Virus record (IMG/VR): IMGVR_UViG_3300034167_000419
Location: 1 to 44,113 of that record
Strand: one strand, 5' to 3'
Origin: a virus
Length of the DNA stretch: 44,113 nucleotides
Within the stretch, counting starts at the first letter, position 1. Each line of letters starts with the position of its first letter. Positions 130 through 7,717 of this stretch are shown here, one piece after another. A model generated the notes under the pieces. That model ran no database searches, had not been told where the DNA came from, and saw only the letters and a list, made by a program, of their open reading frames with translations. A program made the translations under genes and the position numbers.

Positions 130-336
130 TCATATTTGTAGGAAAAAAGTATTGAAAAGTGCCATATTTCAATTTTTATAAAAAAAAAGTGCGTTTTTAC
201 ACCCCCCCCCCTAAACGAAATACCAAAATAGGGTGGGGGGGTCTATTTTCTATATTTTTATAAAAAAAACTAATTAATTAATATATATATAAAAAGAGTA
301 TTATTGTATTAATTAATTTATTATCTTTGTAGCAAT
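130..336. promoter_or_regulatory. Hairpin/promoter element, copy 1
   Basis: A gene-free stretch before the 337 gene. In order: TTTGTAGGAAAAAAGTAT (135-152); two AAAGTGC motifs (156-162 and 186-192, 30 bp apart); an inverted repeat of C10 (202-211) and GGG-T-G7 (231-241) with one T bulge; then AT-rich DNA ending in TATCTTTG (322-329). The same parts occur at 5705-5928. The hairpin has no clean U-tract, so a simple terminator does not fit. Its function is unknown. Confidence 0.7.
322..329 (+). promoter_or_regulatory. Promoter -7 box TATCTTTG
   Basis: Matches TAnnTTTG. The ATG of the following gene is only 7 nt downstream, so a transcript starting at the usual distance would have almost no leader. 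No clear -33 box is visible in the AT-rich DNA upstream. Confidence 0.5.
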
Positions 337-633
337 ATGATTGTATACTTTTATTTAAAGACTAAACCTTTTAAACAAGAAAATAACTTAGTTTATATAA
401 ATGGTTATGTATTACACTATGATAATTATATAGAATACGAAACTGATGCTGTAATTACAGTGGACACTGACTTCTATTTGGATTTACTATTATTAAAGTC
501 TAAGCATAAGAAATATACTTTTTTAAGTATGTCCAAAGAGATGTTTGTTAAATCTAATCCTGTTAATATTACAGAAGGAAAAATAAGTGGTCAAGCCAAA
601 AATGGAGAATATATAATATTAGAAGAAATATGA
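337..633 (+). CDS. Hypothetical protein, 98 aa
   Basis: I do not recognise this protein. It is 98 residues long, rich in Tyr, Ile and Lys, without a signal peptide or membrane segment, and looks like a small beta-rich fold (alternating hydrophobic stretches at residues 20-50 and 60-98). It is the first gene after hairpin/promoter element 1 and overlaps the start of the MazG-like gene by 4 bp (ATGA), so the two are co-translated. Its start codon sits 7 nt after a -7 box, suggesting a nearly leaderless mRNA. Confidence 0.7.
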   Translation: MIVYFYLKTKPFKQENNLVYINGYVLHYDNYIEYETDAVITVDTDFYLDLLLLKSKHKKYTFLSMSKEMFVKSNPVNITEGKISGQAKNGEYIILEEI

Positions 634-1013
634 GTATAAGTCACACGGGAATGGTTTACTTCGGAACTGAAGCAAAACCTTATAAAGAAACTGAAGTAGT
701 AAAAGATACAATCGTAGAAAGCGTTGTAAAGCAATTTAAAGAGCGTTCTGAAGTAGGAATTGCTAAATACGGCACTACTATGGATAGAAAAGATTTAAGT
801 ACCTTAGAATGGATGATTCACTTCCGAGAGGAGCTGATGGATGGATTGTTGTATTTAGAACGTGTAATAAAAGATACACAAAAGGAAAATATAATTGATA
901 TAATGAAATCTGATGAAGAATTAGGATTGTATGCAAATACATTTAGTGGAACAACATCATCAACTACAAATAATTCATATAATCCAGCTTTTACTAAATG
1001 TCAATGTAAGTAA
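630..1013 (+). CDS. MazG-like / dATP-dGTP diphosphohydrolase-like nucleotide hydrolase
   Basis: The middle of this 127-residue protein (about 28-80) reads FKERSEVGIAKYG, then DLSTLEWMIHFREELMDGLLYLER. This is the pattern of phage all-alpha NTP pyrophosphatases (MazG/MazZ-like, DUF5664 relatives), where the E..EELMD cluster binds Mg2+. Such enzymes hydrolyse (d)NTPs to monophosphates and pyrophosphate and may adjust nucleotide pools. No PurZ or DpoZ partner is visible, so a link to modified bases is not supported. The C-terminal ~30 residues are Ser/Thr/Asn-rich and end in CQCK. Translationally coupled to the gene before it (ATGA overlap). Confidence 0.6.
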   Translation: MSISHTGMVYFGTEAKPYKETEVVKDTIVESVVKQFKERSEVGIAKYGTTMDRKDLSTLEWMIHFREELMDGLLYLERVIKDTQKENIIDIMKSDEELGLYANTFSGTTSSTTNNSYNPAFTKCQCK

Positions 1014-1024
1014 TCCCTTTGTGG

Positions 1025-1303
1025 CTATCTAAAGAACTTCAATAGGTTAATGTCCACTTCAGATTTGGTGTCGTACTTCATTTGAGCCAAACCTCTCTCA
1101 ACTATATTCATAACCTCATCGGTTGTGTTAGTTTTCCAACTTATTCTTTTAAGTAGAACTGTCCGCTTTTTATTTGTAAAATAATCAATAGCAGTTGAGT
1201 GCATAAGTTGCCTTGTCAGGTTTACAAAGTCAATATCAATTTCCTTACTGTCCAGTATGGTTTGATTATTTTTAGCTATTTCTATAAGTTTTTCATCTGT
1301 CAT
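1025..1303 (-). CDS. Hypothetical protein, 92 aa
   Basis: Unrecognised helical protein of 92 residues with no signal peptide or membrane segment; the centre is Lys/Arg-rich. It lies convergent to the MazG-like gene, only 11 bp from its stop, with no obvious terminator between. A TATATTTG box ends 4 nt before the ATG, so it probably has its own promoter and a leaderless transcript. A terminator at 1359-1394 separates it from the minus-strand operon upstream. Confidence 0.6.
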   Translation of the reverse strand: MTDEKLIEIAKNNQTILDSKEIDIDFVNLTRQLMHSTAIDYFTNKKRTVLLKRISWKTNTTDEVMNIVERGLAQMKYDTKSEVDINLLKFFR

Positions 1304-1307
1304 AATG

Positions 1308-1315
1308 CAAATATA
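1308..1315 (-). promoter_or_regulatory. Promoter -7 box TATATTTG
   Basis: Minus-strand TATATTTG lies 4 nt before the ATG at 1303. No convincing -33 box is visible; that position lies in a 17-bp duplication. Confidence 0.45.
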
Positions 1316-1323
1316 AACATAAT

Positions 1324-1357
1324 ATTTCTACGGTGGGTATATTTCTACGGTGGGTAT
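1324..1357. repeat. Tandem duplication of a 17-bp unit
   Basis: ATTTCTACGGTGGGTAT occurs twice in direct contact (1324-1340, 1341-1357), just upstream of the 1303 gene's promoter box. It could be a pair of protein-binding sites. Confidence 0.85.
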
Positions 1358-1358
1358 T

Positions 1359-1394
1359 AAAAAACCCTTACAACAAATTAATGCTATAAGGGTT
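1359..1394 (-). terminator. Rho-independent terminator of the 2945-1561 operon
   Basis: Read on the minus strand: AACCCTTA, a 16-nt loop, TAAGGGTT, then six T in a row (1364-1359). It lies downstream of the last minus-strand gene (ends 1561) and before the separate gene at 1303. Confidence 0.6.
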
Positions 1395-1549
1395 ATGTTC
1401 GTCTTTCCGAACTGCCAAAGAATATGCAAATTTGTAAGGTTTATGAATATTATACCTAATTAATACCTTACTTTGACTCAAGCATTTACACGACCTACAT
1501 TGTATCTTTTACAAGGATTCCTTTTCTACTAATTAGGTTTTATGTCGTT

Positions 1550-1588
1550 GGGTTGCCTCGCTAGGTTGCCTCGCTAGGTTGCCTCGTT
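1550..1588. repeat. 13-bp repeat family, three tandem copies
   Basis: Units GGGTTGCCTCGCT, AGGTTGCCTCGCT and AGGTTGCCTCGTT stand head to tail. The minus-strand gene 1561-1722 runs into the array and takes its last ten codons from it. The same family occurs at 1735-1774, 3053-3147 and 43251-43263. Confidence 0.85.
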
Positions 1589-1722
1589 GGGTTTAATACT
1601 TCTCCAAGTGTCCATTCCTGAGAGCAATCTAAATGGTTTTGAATCCAAGTTCTTGCATCTGATAAATCTAATGCTCTAAATGTATAATGCTCTTTATTTG
1701 ATTTTGCGTAGTACGTTCTCAT
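1561..1722 (-). CDS. Small hypothetical protein, 53 aa, tail encoded by repeats
   Basis: Starts at an ATG (1722) with MRTYYAKSNKEHYTFRALDL and ends NPTRQPSEAT at a TAG inside the 13-bp repeat array. The body contains an amphipathic stretch (SDARTWIQNH). I do not recognise it. It is last in the minus-strand operon, 31 bp after the 1753-2127 gene, which also ends in a repeat-encoded PRQP sequence. The intact frame and operon position support a real gene. Confidence 0.55.
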   Translation of the reverse strand: MRTYYAKSNKEHYTFRALDLSDARTWIQNHLDCSQEWTLGEVLNPTRQPSEAT

Positions 1723-1734
1723 AGTTTAATAGTT

Positions 1735-1774
1735 GGGTTGCCTCGGTGGGTTTTAATAGTTGGGTTGCCTCGGT
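1735..1774. repeat. 13-bp repeat family, two spaced copies
   Basis: GGGTTGCCTCGGT at 1735-1747 and 1762-1774, separated by 14 bp. The second copy forms the 3' end of the 1753-2127 gene; the first overlaps its stop. Confidence 0.85.
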
Positions 1775-2127
1775 GGGTTAAATGGTTTGCCAAAGTGTCC
1801 AATGGATAAGTTTAAATAATATCCTACATCAAAATAATCGCTTTGGACATCTGACCTGTCATAATTATTTTTATTTGCTATTTCAAATATCTTTTTTAGT
1901 ACTAGAACTGACTCTTTATTTTCTCTGCTTTCTAACCAATATTGATTAACTGACTCATAAGAATTGTTTTGGTCGTTTCTAAGCTCGATTGGTGCATTTA
2001 TAATACTTATGCTCAAACTTAAATAATCACGTCTTACAATTGATAATTTCCAGCCTAATCTTGAAGGGAAGTTCTTCTTTAGTTCTTCCCTTATTACTTT
2101 TACTTCTTCGGTGCTAATATACGCCAT
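1753..2127 (-). CDS. LPD29-like accessory protein, 124 aa
   Basis: The fold pattern (N-terminal helix with IREELKKNFP, a strand pair, then IANKNNYDRSDVQSDYFDVG followed by a short strand) resembles the large-polyvalent-protein-associated LPD29 family found in phages and conjugative elements, whose role is unknown. The C-terminus (NPPRQPNY) is encoded by the 13-bp repeat. It is separated by one base from the 2129-2395 gene in the same operon. The family assignment is from memory of the motif and is moderate. Confidence 0.6.
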   Translation of the reverse strand: MAYISTEEVKVIREELKKNFPSRLGWKLSIVRRDYLSLSISIINAPIELRNDQNNSYESVNQYWLESRENKESVLVLKKIFEIANKNNYDRSDVQSDYFDVGYYLNLSIGHFGKPFNPPRQPNY

Positions 2128-2128
2128 T

Positions 2129-2395
2129 TTAATATTCGTTTACATAAATTAATTGCCTTTCTTTGCTGCTGCATATAAATTCTGTAATTTGTTCTGCAAA
2201 GTAGTAACTGGTTTGTTCTTCAAGATAGTTTAAATAATCTCTATATTCTGTGCAATATAAGAAAAACCTATTTTGTGTTAATACTTTTTTTGTATTCCAG
2301 TCAATCACCTGAATTAAGGCATAATCTTTGGACACTTGCACTTTAATAATTCCGCCAATTGCGGATTCCCCGATTTTAAATGTTTTTGTTTTCAT
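2129..2395 (-). CDS. Hypothetical protein, 88 aa
   Basis: Unrecognised. An N-terminal Lys/Gly/Ile-rich beta-like half (1-45) is followed by a Tyr- and Glu-rich helical half. No signal peptide or membrane segment. It lies 2 bp downstream of the 2398-2736 gene and 1 bp upstream of the LPD29-like gene, within one minus-strand operon. Confidence 0.65.
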   Translation of the reverse strand: MKTKTFKIGESAIGGIIKVQVSKDYALIQVIDWNTKKVLTQNRFFLYCTEYRDYLNYLEEQTSYYFAEQITEFICSSKERQLIYVNEY

Positions 2396-2397
2396 AA

Positions 2398-2736
2398 TTA
2401 ATTAGGTTTTATGTCGTTAGGTATAAAGTGTCCAGTTGTATTGCAAAATTTGTACTCGATTGCTTTTAATATTTCTTTTATGTCGCTGGGTTGCGAATCC
2501 CAGTTTGATTTTGAGCTTATTTTCTTGCAAACTCTTGTAAATTTCTCCATATCTGAAATTCTGTCTGTTTCAACTAAAAATCGCATTCCGTACCAATAAT
2601 TTTCTCCGTTTGTCTGCTGGAAACGAATTGAACCGATTGGGTTTAAATAATCTTTCCATCTTTCATTAAGAATTTCGATGTTTGTAAAATTATAACCGTT
2701 TTGGCTATATTCTGTTGTTCTGATTTTTGCTTTCAT
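2398..2736 (-). CDS. Hypothetical protein, 112 aa
   Basis: Unrecognised 112-residue protein with several Trp and Tyr residues (for example ENYWYGMRFLVE near residue 45) and a helical second half. Its ATG overlaps the stop of the 2733-2945 gene (ATGA), so it is translationally coupled. The sequence encoding its C-terminus (about 2399-2420) is nearly repeated at 1531-1550 just before a 13-bp repeat array, suggesting a past duplication of gene ends in this operon. Confidence 0.65.
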   Translation of the reverse strand: MKAKIRTTEYSQNGYNFTNIEILNERWKDYLNPIGSIRFQQTNGENYWYGMRFLVETDRISDMEKFTRVCKKISSKSNWDSQPSDIKEILKAIEYKFCNTTGHFIPNDIKPN

Positions 2737-2945
2737 ACTATTTTAAAATTAAATGGTTGTGAGTCTAATGAATAATCAAATGTTAATCCTAATGGTTTAA
2801 ATTTATCTTGCCAATTTGCCAATTCTTGATAATCTAATCCATCATAACCATCTGATTGGAATCTTTCCCAAAGATTAAAGAAACCTTTGCTTTTTATTAT
2901 AGAATCAAATTGTTCTATATTACTAAAATCGTTTTTTAATTTCAT
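2733..2945 (-). CDS. Hypothetical protein, 70 aa
   Basis: First gene of the minus-strand operon. Soluble, with an acidic/aromatic pattern (FFNLWERFQSDGYDGLDYQE in the centre); I do not recognise it. A TATATTTG box on the minus strand (2979-2972) lies 26 bp upstream of the ATG. Confidence 0.65.
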   Translation of the reverse strand: MKLKNDFSNIEQFDSIIKSKGFFNLWERFQSDGYDGLDYQELANWQDKFKPLGLTFDYSLDSQPFNFKIV

Positions 2946-2971
2946 AATTAAGTTGTTTAAATTTTCTTCTG

Positions 2972-2979
2972 CAAATATA
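2972..2979 (-). promoter_or_regulatory. Promoter -7 box of the 2945-1561 operon
   Basis: Minus-strand TATATTTG, 26 bp before the ATG at 2945. No TTG is visible at the expected -33 distance. Confidence 0.5.
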
Positions 2980-3052
2980 TGTCGAACATTTGAATTACGA
3001 ACTATGTTTATTAAAATATTGTGAAAATTTTAACTTTTGCCTCAGATTTACT

Positions 3053-3147
3053 GGGTTGCCTCGTTGGGTTGCCTCGTTGGGTTGCCTCGTTGGGTTGCCT
3101 CGTTGGGTCGCCTCGCTGGGTTGCCTCGTTGGGTTGCCTCGGTAGGT
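3053..3147. repeat. 13-bp tandem repeat array, seven units
   Basis: Seven head-to-tail units of GGGTTGCCTCGTT with a few substitutions (for example GGGTCGCCTCGCT at 3105-3117 and GGGTTGCCTCGGT at 3131-3143). It lies in a gene-free region. The 13-bp period is not a multiple of three and there is no unique spacer, so it is neither a CRISPR nor an obvious coding repeat. Confidence 0.9.
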
Positions 3148-3161
3148 AAAAAGTGAAAAAT

Positions 3162-3196
3162 TACAAAATGTTACAAATATAACAAAATGTTACAAA
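3162..3196. repeat. Two iteron-like 15-bp repeats
   Basis: ACAAAATGTTACAAA at 3162-3176 and 3182-3196, a 20-bp period (about two helical turns), next to the 13-bp array. Confidence 0.75.
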
Positions 3197-3220
3197 AAAC
3201 ATTAAAATGACTTTTAGCTT

Positions 3221-3391
3221 GTTTAAAGCATTATTTTAATCAAAAGGTATCAATATACCAAAAAAGTTTTTTATTGCCTTAAATTGACTAAAAAAGCTAT
3301 CGAAAAAATCCAGTATAAAACGTAAAATGTAAATTTTAACATAATATTAACAAATTTTTAACAGTTTAAAGTATTGTTTTATTCAAAAGTT
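3221..3391. repeat. Spaced 28-bp direct repeats
   Basis: 3221-3248 and 3364-3391 match at 24 of 28 positions (both begin GTTTAAAG and contain TCAAAAG). The second copy covers the -33 box and spacer of the 3396 promoter, so it could be an operator or a duplicated promoter. Confidence 0.7.
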
Positions 3392-3403
3392 GACGTATAT
3401 TTG
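3374..3403 (+). promoter_or_regulatory. Promoter of the 3451-5074 operon
   Basis: TTG (3374-3376), 19 bp, TATATTTG (3396-3403), a full match to the Bacteroidota pattern. The leader to the ATG at 3451 is about 40 nt and purine-rich (AGAAAGGAAGC). Confidence 0.7.
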
Positions 3404-3450
3404 TATCAGAAAGGAAGCAATAAAGCAACCTATAAAAAAACCTTAATAAA

Positions 3451-3540
3451 ATGAAAAATTTAAACTTAATCTTATTTTTTGCAGTAGTAGTTACAGTAGC
3501 CACAGGAATACATTTTTTAACTTTAAATTGCTACAGATAA
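3451..3540 (+). CDS. 29-aa membrane peptide
   Basis: MKNLNLILFFAVVVTVATGI then a short polar end. Nearly the whole peptide is one transmembrane helix after a short basic N-terminus. It is the first gene after the 3396 promoter and 2 bp upstream of a second tiny membrane peptide. I do not recognise it; the promoter, spacing and hydrophobicity support a real gene. Confidence 0.5.
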   Translation: MKNLNLILFFAVVVTVATGIHFLTLNCYR

Positions 3541-3542
3541 TT

Positions 3543-3641
3543 ATGAAATCATTTTTTCAATACCAGGGCAAACAAATTATTTTCGGTCAAATTATCGGAA
3601 TTTATTTTTTAATCAATTTAATAATTAATCTAATAAACTAA
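3543..3641 (+). CDS. 32-aa membrane peptide
   Basis: Begins MKSFFQYQGKQIIFGQIIGI and continues as a single hydrophobic helix to the end (FLINLIINLIN). It sits 2 bp after the first peptide and 4 bp before the GP88-like gene, in the same plus-strand operon. Function unknown; a single-span membrane peptide is all the sequence shows. Confidence 0.5.
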   Translation: MKSFFQYQGKQIIFGQIIGIYFLINLIINLIN

Positions 3642-3645
3642 AAAA

Positions 3646-4362
3646 ATGAAATTACTTACAACAAATAACGCCAAGACCATTAAAGGAGAAAAGAAAAACT
3701 ATAAAACTTACATTTTGTACATGTCACCAGCCTACCAAAACGACAAAAATATAAATCTTTGCTCCCACGCTTCGAAAGGTTGTTTAGAGGCTTGTTTATT
3801 TAAGTCCGGATTCGGAGGAATTTATACCAGCGTTCAGAAGGCACGAATTGCAAAAAGTAACTATTTTTTAAACGATAGAGTTAAATTTTTACTACAGCTA
3901 AAAAAGGAAATTGCAGCAGCAATAAAGAACCAAAAAGAAGGCGAAAAATTAGCATTTAGATTAAACGGCACAACCGACATAAATTTCGAAAAGTTTAAAA
4001 TAGAAGATAATAAAAATATTTTCGAGTTATTTCCTGAGGCACAATTTTACGATTATACAAAAAACTATGTAAGATTAGAAAAACGTATTTTACCGCCAAA
4101 TTATCACATTACATTTTCAAGAAGTGAAACCAACGAGGAAAAAGCTATCGAAATGCTAAATCTAGGCTATAATGTTGCTGCAGTCTTCGACAAATTGCCA
4201 ACCAGCTACAAAGGATACAAAGTAATAAACGGAGACGAAAACGACCTCAGATTTTTAGACGAAAAAAACACCATCGTAGGATTAAAGTATAAAAAATTAA
4301 CAGGTAAAGGAGCAGACAACAGCCAAGGTATAAAATCTAACTTTGTAATTAAAACAACATGA
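3646..4362 (+). CDS. GP88/DUF7227-like cysteine-motif protein
   Basis: A 238-residue protein with the motif CSHASKGCLEAC near residue 39 (C-x6-C-x3-C), preceded by MSPAYQNDKN and followed by alternating strand/helix segments (AFRLNGTTD near 105, FYDYTKN near 133, YHITFSRSE near 150, NVAAVFDKLP near 174). It resembles phage proteins called GP88 or DUF7227. The cysteine cluster on a barrel-like scaffold suggests an iron-sulfur or zinc site, possibly a remote radical-SAM relative, but the spacing is not the classical CX3CX2C. C-ending Asn/Asp codons seem more frequent than in the structural genes, suggesting transfer. The function is not established. Confidence 0.65.
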   Translation: MKLLTTNNAKTIKGEKKNYKTYILYMSPAYQNDKNINLCSHASKGCLEACLFKSGFGGIYTSVQKARIAKSNYFLNDRVKFLLQLKKEIAAAIKNQKEGEKLAFRLNGTTDINFEKFKIEDNKNIFELFPEAQFYDYTKNYVRLEKRILPPNYHITFSRSETNEEKAIEMLNLGYNVAAVFDKLPTSYKGYKVINGDENDLRFLDEKNTIVGLKYKKLTGKGADNSQGIKSNFVIKTT

Positions 4363-4490
4363 TAAATTTAACACAAATTAAAAAAGAGAGAGCGCAAAAG
4401 CGCAAAGAAAAAAAGCAGCTAAAAAAGGATATTGCAGCAGCTAACAAAGATTTTTTTAATAACCTATTCAAAAATTTACACAATGAATAA
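4359..4490 (+). CDS. 43-aa basic protein
   Basis: MINLTQIKKERAQKRKEKKQ then LKKDIAAANKDFF. Strongly basic and helical; unrecognised. The ATG overlaps the stop of the GP88-like gene (ATGA) and its stop overlaps the start of the next gene, so it sits in a tightly coupled operon. A nucleic-acid-binding or structural helper role would fit the charge but is only inference. Confidence 0.6.
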   Translation: MINLTQIKKERAQKRKEKKQLKKDIAAANKDFFNNLFKNLHNE

Positions 4491-4704
4491 AACGGCAAGA
4501 CTTAAGGAACACCACGAAAGATTGATATTTTTAAATAGTGTTAACCATTACACGCAAAGCGGGAATCCTAAAATTGATAAATATTATAAACTACTTAAAG
4601 AAATTCAAAAACGAATTTTTATAATAAATAATTATACACCAATAAACCCGAACAGTTTTTTTAACCCAACATTAAACGCAATACAACAACTTAAAAATAA
4701 ATAA
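4483..4704 (+). CDS. Hypothetical protein, 73 aa
   Basis: I chose the ATG at 4483, which overlaps the previous stop, rather than an upstream in-frame start at 4432 that would lie inside the preceding gene. The protein (MNKTARLKEHHERLIFLNS...) is basic and helical, with IDKYYKLLKEIQKRIFIINN in the middle. Unrecognised. Confidence 0.6.
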   Translation: MNKTARLKEHHERLIFLNSVNHYTQSGNPKIDKYYKLLKEIQKRIFIINNYTPINPNSFFNPTLNAIQQLKNK

Positions 4705-4706
4705 TT

Positions 4707-4964
4707 ATGAAAGAATTAATCGAAAGCACAAAAGGAAAATTTTTTACCGTTACATTTGTAAAAAAGGACGGCACAATAAGAAGAGCAACCGCACGAACTG
4801 GAGTAAGAAAAGGCACAAAGGGAATAGGACTAGGATATAATGCAACCGACAAAGGCATTAAAATCTTATGGGTTTGTGATGCTGAAAACTTCAGAGCTAT
4901 AAAATTGAATAGCATCTTAGGTATAAAATTTAAAGGTAAAAACTATTTTAATACTGTAATCTAA
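4707..4964 (+). CDS. SH3-like beta-barrel phage protein
   Basis: An 85-residue protein beginning MKELIESTKGKFFTVTFVKK, then DGTIRRATARTGVRKGTKG and a final strand with SILGIKFKGKNYF. This matches small proteins annotated as SH3 beta-barrel fold in Bacteroidota phages. The many Arg/Lys residues on strand 2 would suit nucleic-acid binding. It is 2 bp after the previous gene and overlaps the next start by one base (TAATG). Confidence 0.65.
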   Translation: MKELIESTKGKFFTVTFVKKDGTIRRATARTGVRKGTKGIGLGYNATDKGIKILWVCDAENFRAIKLNSILGIKFKGKNYFNTVI

Positions 4965-5074
4965 TGAAAGAAGATAACAACCAGCTCCCAGCCTTACTAC
5001 TTGCTTTTTGTTGTATTGGCGCTGTTTACGGAATTATATTTTTGTTCGGAATGCTAATAGGATTGAATAGTTAA
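4964..5074 (+). CDS. 36-aa membrane peptide
   Basis: MKEDNNQLPALLLAFCCIGA followed by VYGIIFLFGMLIGLNS: a short acidic N-terminus and one long transmembrane helix with two adjacent Cys. The start overlaps the stop of the SH3-like gene (TAATG). It is the third tiny membrane peptide of this operon. Function unknown. Confidence 0.55.
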   Translation: MKEDNNQLPALLLAFCCIGAVYGIIFLFGMLIGLNS

Positions 5075-5186
5075 TTAAGTTAATTAAGTTAATAGCTAAG
5101 ATTGACAACTTAAAACCAAGTAAAACTGGAAAGGTTGACAAAAAAACCAACAGACAACCGCGACAAAATTCGCGCAAACGTAAACA

Positions 5187-5229
5187 AAAAAAACCTTTGA
5201 GAGATTGAAAACCTTTCAAAGGTTTTTTT
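5187..5229 (+). terminator. Rho-independent terminator of the accessory operon
   Basis: A7-CCTTTGA (5187-5200) pairs with TCAAAGG-T7 (5216-5229) over 14 bp, leaving a 15-nt loop and ending in a T-run. It closes the 3451-5074 operon. Confidence 0.85.
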
Positions 5230-5241
5230 ATGCGCTATTGT

Positions 5242-5369
5242 TTCGGGTGCTTCATGTGTTCGGGTGCTTCATGTGTTCGGGTGCTTCATGTGTTCGGGTG
5301 CTTCATGTGTTCGGGTGCTTCATGTGTTCGGGTGCTTCATGTGTTCGGGTGCTTCATGTGTTCGGGTGC
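5242..5369. repeat. 17-bp tandem array, about 7.5 units
   Basis: TTCGGGTGCTTCATGTG repeats without change; units start at 5242, 5259, 5276, 5293, 5310, 5327, 5344 and a partial one at 5361. Because 17 is not a multiple of three and the unit has no stop codon, all plus frames read the same 17-residue cycle, which makes false ORFs. The core GGGT-GC-TC resembles the 13-bp family. It lies right after a terminator, with no gene on either side. Confidence 0.9.
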
Positions 5370-5704
5370 AAAATTGCCACAAGCCACCCCCCGAAAGCCA
5401 AACAAGGCAATAAACAGACCCCAACCCCCCCCTTTTTTGCGACCTGTATAGTATATTTGACCCCCTCCACAAATTTTTTCCACACAATATAACTTTTCAT
5501 TATTCAGTATTTTCTTACATATATCCTACAAAAATTTTTTTCCTATTCTATGTACTTTTTGAAAGAGAGAAGATTCTTACAAGTTGTAAAAAATAAATAA
5601 AAGCCGTTTGTTGTCGTTTAATCCACTTTTGAGTTAGAAATGCAAATTATTCAGGATTACAATTCCAACAGTAAAATAGAAATGTCTGTTTTTCGCTTCG
5701 CAAA
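5370..5704. other. Gene-free stretch with C-runs and a DnaA-box-like site
   Basis: No convincing gene. It holds C-rich runs (about 5388-5432), a TATATTTG sequence at 5452-5459 without a -33 box, and TTTTCCACA (5476-5484), one mismatch from a DnaA box. The rest is AT-rich DNA leading into hairpin/promoter element 2. Confidence 0.5.
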
Positions 5705-5928
5705 TAACATTTTGTAGGAAAAAAGTATGAAAAATGGCACTTTTTGAAAAAACGTAAAAAAAAAACGCACTTTTATACCCCCCCCCCTAAAAAGTGTATC
5801 AAGAAATAGGGGGGGGGGTATATTTCCTTTATTTTATAAAATATTATTATTATTAAAAAAAATATATATAATATATAATAGTATTAATTAATTTTGTAAC
5901 TTTGTAGCAATTATTATTAAATATAATT
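5705..5928. promoter_or_regulatory. Hairpin/promoter element, copy 2
   Basis: Carries the parts of copy 1: TTTGTAGGAAAAAAGTAT (5711-5728); two GCACTTT motifs (5737-5743 and 5767-5773, 30 bp apart, inverted relative to copy 1); a perfect 16-bp inverted repeat with C10 (5778-5787) and G10 (5809-5818) and a 17-nt loop; AT-rich DNA; and the promoter box TAACTTTG at 5897-5904. It leads directly into the terminase genes. Confidence 0.75.
5897..5904 (+). promoter_or_regulatory. Late-type promoter -7 box TAACTTTG
   Basis: TTTTGTAACTTTGTAGCAAT lies 24 bp before the small terminase ATG. The same core precedes the capsid (10854), tape-measure (15869) and S74-fibre (23245) genes. Confidence 0.6.
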
Positions 5929-6369
5929 ATGGAAAGAGATAAAGTATTTTTGGATATTATTCAACAGATAGAGTTGGGTCGTTCAATAAAGAATATATTA
6001 GATGGTGATGATTACCCAATCACACGAAGTACTTTCTACAACTGGTTAAATGAAAATCCCGATAGAATAGAATTATACAAGAAAGCTACTGAAATACGTG
6101 CTGATGGTATCTTTGACGATATGTTAGAGATTTCTGATGATGGTACTAAGGACTACTACTATGATGTTAATGGAAACAGACAACAGAGTATGGTAGCTGT
6201 AAACAGGTCAAGGTTGCAACTTGATACTCGTAAATGGGTATTGGGAAGGATGAACCCTAAAAAGTACAGCGAGAAACTTGATATTACTTCAGGAGGGGAT
6301 AAATTGAAAGTAGTTCCAATTATAGGGATGCAGATTATTAACCAAGAGGAAGAAGAAGTTGCAGAATAA
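5929..6369 (+). CDS. terS: Terminase small subunit
   Basis: A 146-residue protein with an N-terminal helix-turn-helix-like part (ITRSTFYNWLNENPDRIELY, about 31-50) and the pattern LQLDTRKWVLGRMNPKKYSE (about 97-116), typical of Sf6-type small terminases. It recognises viral DNA and guides the large terminase during packaging. The C-terminus is acidic (EEEEVAE). It lies after element 2 and overlaps the large terminase by 11 bp. Confidence 0.88.
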   Translation: MERDKVFLDIIQQIELGRSIKNILDGDDYPITRSTFYNWLNENPDRIELYKKATEIRADGIFDDMLEISDDGTKDYYYDVNGNRQQSMVAVNRSRLQLDTRKWVLGRMNPKKYSEKLDITSGGDKLKVVPIIGMQIINQEEEEVAE

Positions 6370-7717
6370 GAGCCTATCATTAAATGTTAGAGGTAATTTA
6401 AAGCAATTAGAAGCCATAAAGGCTTGGACTGATAAAACTACCATTGATATTGTATATGGAGGTTCAAAAGGAAGCGGAAAGACTTTCATAGGTTGTTCTT
6501 TGATATGTGCAGATGCACTAATGTACCCTGAAACGCATTATTTTATTGCGAGAAAGACATTAGCAGATTTACGTAAGTTTACTATTCCTTCAATTCAAGA
6601 GGTTTTGAGTGGATGGGGAATAACAGAGGATTATTATAGCTTCAATGGTCAAGATAACTATTTCAAGTTTCATAATAAATCTAAGATATTTTTGATTGAT
6701 GCGAAGTATTTGCCAAGCGACCCAAACTATATGCGATTTGGAGGTATGCAGAATACTCGTGGATGGATAGAAGAAGCTGGGGAGTTTGACATTGAGTGTA
6801 AGAATAACTTACAAGCGAGTATAGGGCGTTGGAAGAATAAGGAATATGACCTGTCGCCAAAGTTGCTACAAACGTGTAACCCCAGCAAGAATTATTTGTA
6901 CAAGGATTATTATAAGGCAACAATTGATAGGACGATTCCAAATCATATGAAGTTCATTCAGGCATTGCCAACAGATAATAAGACATTGCCAGTTGATTAC
7001 GTTCCTAACTTGATGAAAATATTAAGCCATAACGAAGTTCAAAGGCTTGTATATGGGAATTGGGAGTTTGATGATAATCCTTATGCGATGTTTGAGTATT
7101 CAGATATTCTTGGATTGTACACAAATGAGTTTATCAAACCTACTCAAGATAGGTATATGACTTGTGATATTGCGTATACAGGTTCGGATAAGTTTGTTAT
7201 CGTTGTATGGGCAGGATTTGTAGCATTGAAGATAATTGCTATTGATAAGATTGACGATACGATGGTGAGCAAGAAGATAAATGAGTTACGCATAGAGAAT
7301 AGAGTGCCGCTTAAAAATGTGATATATGATGCTGATGGATTGCAGACATTTACAAGGGCATCAACAAAGTTAGGAAATTTAGTAGGAGCAACTCCATTTA
7401 ACAATAATGGAAAGCCAATAAAGATGCACGGTAAAACAGAGAACTTTAAGAACTTAAAGGCACAATGTTACTGGTACTTTGCAGAAGCGGTTAAGGATTC
7501 TAAGATGTTTATTCAAGAAGATAAATACAGGAAGCAAGTAATCGAGGAATTAGAGCAGATAAATAGACAGCCGTTGCAGGATGATGGTAAAATAGCGTTA
7601 GAGAAAAAAGAGGAGATAAAGAAAAGAATAGGTCGTTCTCCCGATTTTGCTGATGCACTTATGATGAGATTTTTCTTTGAATTGAAAGGTAAGCCGAGAT
7701 TACGAATAATTTGGTAA
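6359..7717 (+). CDS. terL: Terminase large subunit
   Basis: ATPase-nuclease motor that cuts and packages DNA. Walker A is GGSKGSGKT (34-42) and Walker B is in RGWIEEAGE (about 140), followed by the coupling motif LLQTCNPSKNY. The nuclease domain shows MTCDIAYTGSDK, VIYDADG and SPDFADALMM, giving the acidic residues of an RNase H-like fold. At 452 residues it has normal length. The only in-frame start before the domain is a TTG at 6359, overlapping the small subunit by 11 bp; the nearby ATG at 6384 is out of frame. Confidence 0.93.
   Translation: MQNKSLSLNVRGNLKQLEAIKAWTDKTTIDIVYGGSKGSGKTFIGCSLICADALMYPETHYFIARKTLADLRKFTIPSIQEVLSGWGITEDYYSFNGQDNYFKFHNKSKIFLIDAKYLPSDPNYMRFGGMQNTRGWIEEAGEFDIECKNNLQASIGRWKNKEYDLSPKLLQTCNPSKNYLYKDYYKATIDRTIPNHMKFIQALPTDNKTLPVDYVPNLMKILSHNEVQRLVYGNWEFDDNPYAMFEYSDILGLYTNEFIKPTQDRYMTCDIAYTGSDKFVIVVWAGFVALKIIAIDKIDDTMVSKKINELRIENRVPLKNVIYDADGLQTFTRASTKLGNLVGATPFNNNGKPIKMHGKTENFKNLKAQCYWYFAEAVKDSKMFIQEDKYRKQVIEELEQINRQPLQDDGKIALEKKEEIKKRIGRSPDFADALMMRFFFELKGKPRLRIIW

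Follow-up and report, generated by a model that had tools for sequence, protein, structure and literature searches.

Two copies of a hairpin-bearing, putative promoter cassette head the rightward operons of a tailed phage and enclose a variable gene slot

The question raised by this locus is why two similar hairpin elements stand about 5.5 kb apart in a phage genome, one of them directly in front of the terminase genes. In the first-pass annotation of the window, i.e. the whole 44,113-nucleotide stretch of IMG/VR record IMGVR_UViG_3300034167_000419, they were taken as the borders of an exchangeable island that recombination between them would delete. The window is a circularised contig, and element A thus sits between the leftward early operon and the gene slot (Table 1). 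Its terminases share just 31-36% identity with those of the closest isolates (Flavobacterium phage 11b and Polaribacter phage P12002L), which places it in a phage group without a close isolate in the collection searched; judged from these isolate relatives, the host genus would be Flavobacterium. A blastn search with the window start against isolates matched just a 100-bp piece of c1, the low-complexity filter masking the element.

Table 1. Positions in the window of elements A and B and of the features around them
Feature	Position	Strand	Remarks
Window	1-44,113		circularised contig; exact 104-bp repeat at ends
Divergent early promoter	100-71	-	TTG-N19-TAGATTTG; full -33/-7 consensus
Element A	135-336	+	heads operon c7/c1
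Parts of A	135-152; 159-165; 189-193; 202-241; 322-329	+	18-bp block; GTGCCAT; GTGCG; hairpin, followed by A/T spacer; -7 box TATCTTTG
Constant left part	337-1303		c7 337-633 (+), c1 630-1013 (+), c2 1025-1303 (-)
Exchangeable slot core	1304-5380		small minus-strand genes 1753-2945, then plus cassette
Plus cassette genes	3646-4362; 4707-4964	+	GP88; WYL_2-like protein, below Pfam cut-off
Inverted repeat, then T run	5187-5229	+	intrinsic-terminator-like; closes plus cassette well before B
Tandem array	5242-5369		17-bp unit x7.5
19-mer ACCCCCTCCACAAATTTTT	5460-5478	+	conserved noncoding, upstream of B
Element B	5711-5928	+	heads terminase operon
Parts of B	5711-5728; 5734-5740; 5766-5770; 5778-5818; 5897-5904	+	18-bp block; ATGGCAC; CGCAC; hairpin, followed by A/T spacer; -7 box TAACTTTG
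Late operon	from 5929	+	starts with terminase; tailed phage
TerS; TerL	5929-6369; 6359-7717	+	small and large terminase subunits; first genes of late operon
Early/replication module	about 31-44 kb	-	helicase, primase-like protein, HNH endonuclease, YqaJ/RecE-like exonuclease, nuclease with Holliday-junction-resolvase matches

In line with the first-pass annotation, both elements combine a common 18-bp block, paired motifs, a hairpin and an AT-rich putative promoter. The block TTTGTAGGAAAAAAGTAT occurs exactly in A and B and at no third place in the window, the chance level being 0.29 hits in shuffled sequence even at 3 mismatches, and it is the sole exact identity between the two copies. The same order of parts, which had also been claimed, is found from the 18-bp block through two short motifs in A/T arms and a C-run/G-run hairpin to an A/T spacer and a -7 box; the paired motifs, however, are inverted in B relative to A (GTGCC/GGCAC and GTGCG/CGCAC). 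Likewise, the C10/G10 hairpin ascribed to both copies is present in B, but imperfect in A (C10/G3TG7). Windows of eight C with at most one mismatch number 27, compared to 2.3 expected. DNA folding yields z values of -3.45 (A) and -2.55 (B) for the whole elements and -4.2 for the B hairpin alone, whereby the hairpin loop is long (15-17 nt). At 5828 the spacer of B has 53 bp of A/T only, a longer such stretch than anywhere else in the genome. Neither element has a match in Rfam.

The motifs themselves show a further peculiarity. Loops of 5-7 bp are minutely inverted between A-tract and T-tract arms, independently at two adjoining motifs (L014 versus L022, and A versus B of the window); in the former pair the flip is the only difference between the copies. 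We infer that such flips arise by loop inversion between AAAAA and TTTTT arms.

Among the relatives of the window (family 1), 25 TerS loci were fetched, and nearly all of those with sufficient upstream sequence show the hairpin immediately before TerS. Whole records contain two hairpins each in the window, G002, G003 and G004 and one in G001; G005 and G006, which are fragments, hold one each. In each complete relative the two copies occupy the same two operon heads, and position A is also filled in L128 and L155. With exactly two per genome, the elements are not the common promoter leaders that had been considered initially. In L047 and L048 the stem is changed with pairing kept (CCACCCCT/AGGGGTGG), while L024 and several A copies have an imperfect hairpin with no compensating change. 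In L050 the C/G stem upstream of TerS is lost and the 19-mer kept; in place of the C/G hairpin, GTAGGAATTTAGA and AGTGCCTAAAAG there form an inverted repeat with wide spacing. L053 stems from the metagenome that also yielded L048; its c7 and c1 stand behind a simple promoter and position A is without element, so that copy A was probably acquired or lost as a whole. Outside this group, a search for CCCCCCCTAAA..AATAGGGGGGG in 84,980 bacterial and archaeal genomes gave one stray match only, in a cyanobacterial MAG. In Mumin9-1, runs of C or G stay below 7, and paired C/G runs of 6 or more are absent from phages 11b and P12002L; in P12024L the element would find no space, as a sigma-like gene overlaps the preceding one. 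Among the matches listed by two deeper hairpin/TerS scans, no further TerS lineage appeared.

The distance between hairpin and -7 box is conserved as well. The boxes lie 80 bp (A) and 78 bp (B) past the G-run, and most A and B copies keep 78-80 bp despite differing spacer sequence, with 94 bp or 108-109 bp in some. As in housekeeping promoters of Bacteroidetes, whose consensus is TAnnTTTG at -7 and TTTG at -33 (PMC2483708), the -7 box reads TAnnTTTG. Neither A nor B has a TTG at the -33 distance, so that they depart from the full consensus (TTTG or TTG at -33); a C/G hairpin and an A/T spacer are found instead. Host RNA polymerase by itself would transcribe little or nothing from such a -7-only promoter. 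A tandem promoter in the 18-bp block, where TTTGTAGG resembles the end of a -7 region, was also considered and dropped, as conservation there does not extend to the TA of the -7 box. Hairpins as parts of phage promoters have a precedent in phage N4, in which small hairpins are read by the virion RNA polymerase. Here, however, the hairpin lies about 80 bp upstream, and no N4-like virion RNA polymerase was found in the proteins scanned.

Which genes lie between the copies was addressed by ORF clustering. The constant left part comprises c1, c2 and c3, plus c7 in some relatives, and is followed by at least four alternative plus-strand cassettes: GP88 (window, L014), c13/c14/c15 (L037, L039; c14/c15 in L024), c12/c17 (L036, L052, L016; in part L025) and c9/c10 (L041, L057, L017, L048, L042). 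Hence relatives with other genes between two copies, as sought in the first-pass annotation, do exist, and sizes vary, the two blocks being 4.9-5.7 kb apart in the pairs read. Most of the cassette genes are without functional annotation; c10 has a weak glutamine-amidotransferase match, and PADLOC gave no match for defence genes between the copies. Segment-wise identity to the window puts the replaced part at about 1.3-5.4 kb, with 66-95% identity in c1/c2 and 84-88% in the noncoding stretch 5380-5700. Contrary to what had been proposed, the exchanged segment thus stops short of both elements, being separated from A by the conserved c7/c1/c2 and from B by the conserved noncoding block. From this comparison the modular slot is real, with gene turnover mainly inside the copies rather than at A and B. 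Lambdoid linker or boundary sequences are short conserved joints between exchangeable modules, and in being short and conserved A and B resemble them; here, though, the elements are operon heads outside the exchanged segment.

The slot also holds repeats. At the position of the tandem array most relatives hold units of 16-17 bp, often with GGTGC, whose sequence differs per phage although the terminase is nearly identical. Further repeats occur at 1322-1779 and 3052-3141 (GGTTGCCTCGTTG, CGGTGGGTTT), and other phages carry related but different units of 13-23 bp.

A dedicated deletion or insertion device, with A/B recombination as the regular means of losing or replacing the island, appears very unlikely to us. 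What speaks for it is G001, which has a single hybrid element (left half of A, right half of B, with a 53-bp crossover interval at the hairpin) and no slot, its early module (72-94% identity to the window by segment) directly joining the late module (94%). This is a single such contig, however, and the absence of the conserved 19-mer makes it a possible assembly chimera or defective form. Several contigs indeed break at or near the elements: L012 and L033 end there, and G003 starts there, as does IMGVR_UViG_3300046328_000382. Misassembly is thus possible for G001, which is a warning for junction claims from metagenomes in general. Moreover, A and B remain distinct lineages: left-half identity is 0.82 (A-A) and 0.83 (B-B) versus 0.76 (A-B), and spacer identity 0.80 and 0.93 versus 0.78, respectively, so that the copies are mostly inherited separately. 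The 18 bp exactly common to A and B of the window also argue against routine exchange, and no integrase or transposase match was found among the proteins scanned (some small ORFs left out). The proposed deletion of the island hence has one contig in its favour, and routine A/B recombination was not seen. The expectation that deletion would place the promoter of A before the terminase genes did not hold, as the crossover at the hairpin of G001 leaves the promoter of B there. Occasional patchwork occurs: the left half of A in G003 is 99% identical to its own B, A of L015 carries a B loop, and B of L018 begins as A. As a rule, A and B do not evolve in concert, since hairpin and spacer show no within-genome excess of identity; the weak excess in the left half (p=0.009) is driven by two related genomes.

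The strongest clue to function comes from a second phage group. Family 2 consists of nine loci found by the hairpin pattern C7TA..TAG7 alone, with all genes on one strand and one hairpin per contig. The hairpin, TATA-C8/9-TAAAAA...AAATA-G9-TC, lies between early and late genes, with a weakly sigma-like gene, TerS and TerL on its 3' side; part of its likeness to the family 1 hairpin follows from the search pattern. Early genes resemble those of the window (primase 80-82%, helicase 76%, c1 57-59%), and the terminase is of another type, closest to that of P12024L (63%). In the promoter downstream of the hairpin, a TTG lies at a distance plausible for a -33 box. L138, L140, L154, L165 and the other family 2 loci, which join the replication module of the window to unrelated terminase and late genes, appear as cases of wholesale early/late module exchange.

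The same hairpin layout with unrelated terminases favours a regulatory role and weakens that of a packaging (pac or cos) site adjoining the terminase genes. With another terminase one would expect another packaging site, whereas a switch recognised by a protein of the early module would stay the same, and this is our main reason for preferring regulation. Although B lies directly upstream of TerS in the family 1 genomes examined, a packaging function is highly improbable, as the second copy stands away from the terminase and a better candidate is at hand. The 19-mer, retained even where the C/G hairpin is lost, is the most conserved noncoding stretch upstream of terminase (pattern ACCCCCTC[CT]A[CAT]AAATTTTT). 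It is found in a single copy per genome and at a constant position, including relatives whose TerS is 75% identical, and lies upstream of B in 18/18 loci checked besides G001. We therefore consider it a candidate packaging or other essential cis site.

Alternatively, the hairpin could stop incoming transcription and the promoter restart it, similar copies serving as recombination patches for module shuffling. This would come close to the promoter-early stem-loop (PeSL) cassettes of T4-type phages (Arbiol 2010, Comeau 2014, cited in PMC4503421). The G-run of A and B in family 1 is followed by a T-rich tail TCTATTTTC, the genes between the copies vary, and hybrid copies exist, one with the slot missing; still, we regard such a composite as unlikely, if credible. 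In L047 the hairpin is without T-rich tail, and in family 2 the tail is A-rich, which weakens the terminator reading. In addition, the loop is long for a terminator, the upstream cassette is already closed by a T-tailed hairpin, no transcription enters A from upstream since its neighbour is divergent, and the ends of the exchanged segment are not at the elements. A terminator scanner reported neither hairpin, whereby its loop limit is 8 nt. As far as PeSLs are described in PMC4503421, they nevertheless appear to be the nearest concept: both are small intergenic cassettes of stem-loop and promoter, present in more than one copy by variable gene modules and with hybrid copies. Two defining features, density and module edges, differ. 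The present genomes have two fixed copies only rather than a high density in regions of intense shuffling, and exchange takes place inside, beyond the conserved c1/c2 and noncoding block. Furthermore, one copy here heads the terminase operon, without -33 box, rather than early genes, and the T-rich tail is confined to part of the hairpins.

Replication origins would be another explanation, rather unlikely in our view, with the motifs as initiator sites, the hairpin as single-strand signal, the A/T spacer as unwinding region and the shared primase/helicase module as their reader. The early genes in common indeed form a replication module, the longest A/T-only runs lie directly 3' of the hairpin in the window, the G002 stretch read and G007, and the motif loops flip orientation, as hairpin loops can. 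On the other hand, GC skew in family 2 is positive on both sides of the hairpin, skew in the window follows the coding strand, two sites 5.5 kb apart would be unusual, and every family 1 copy ends in a -7 box.

In conclusion, we give about an even chance to A and B being a duplicated regulatory cassette with a phage-controlled promoter. Short motifs, a C/G-stem hairpin, an A/T-rich spacer of ~80 bp and a -7-only promoter would form one unit at the head of both rightward operons, c7/c1 and the late operon starting with terminase. A putative factor from the shared early module would read the hairpin and/or the adjacent motifs and switch the promoter on, and the similar copies may now and then serve as homology for exchange between copies or phages. 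The anatomy of the cassette, its two fixed positions, its conservation, its presence in family 2 and the varying genes between the copies are observed; promoter activity, control by a factor and any hairpin extrusion are what this layout suggests. A bolder version, which we hold to be improbable though worth stating, is a new class of phage promoter with a poly-C/poly-G DNA hairpin ~80 bp upstream, an A/T-rich spacer and a -7-only promoter; an early-module protein would extrude or bind the hairpin and thereby switch on the downstream operon, and the switch would be exchanged between phages with unrelated late modules. Little is known about the timing of late genes in Bacteroidetes phages. A cassette that persists unchanged while the entire late module is exchanged indicates a common switch under early-module control, and two homologous patches around a fast-changing gene slot would offer a testable case.
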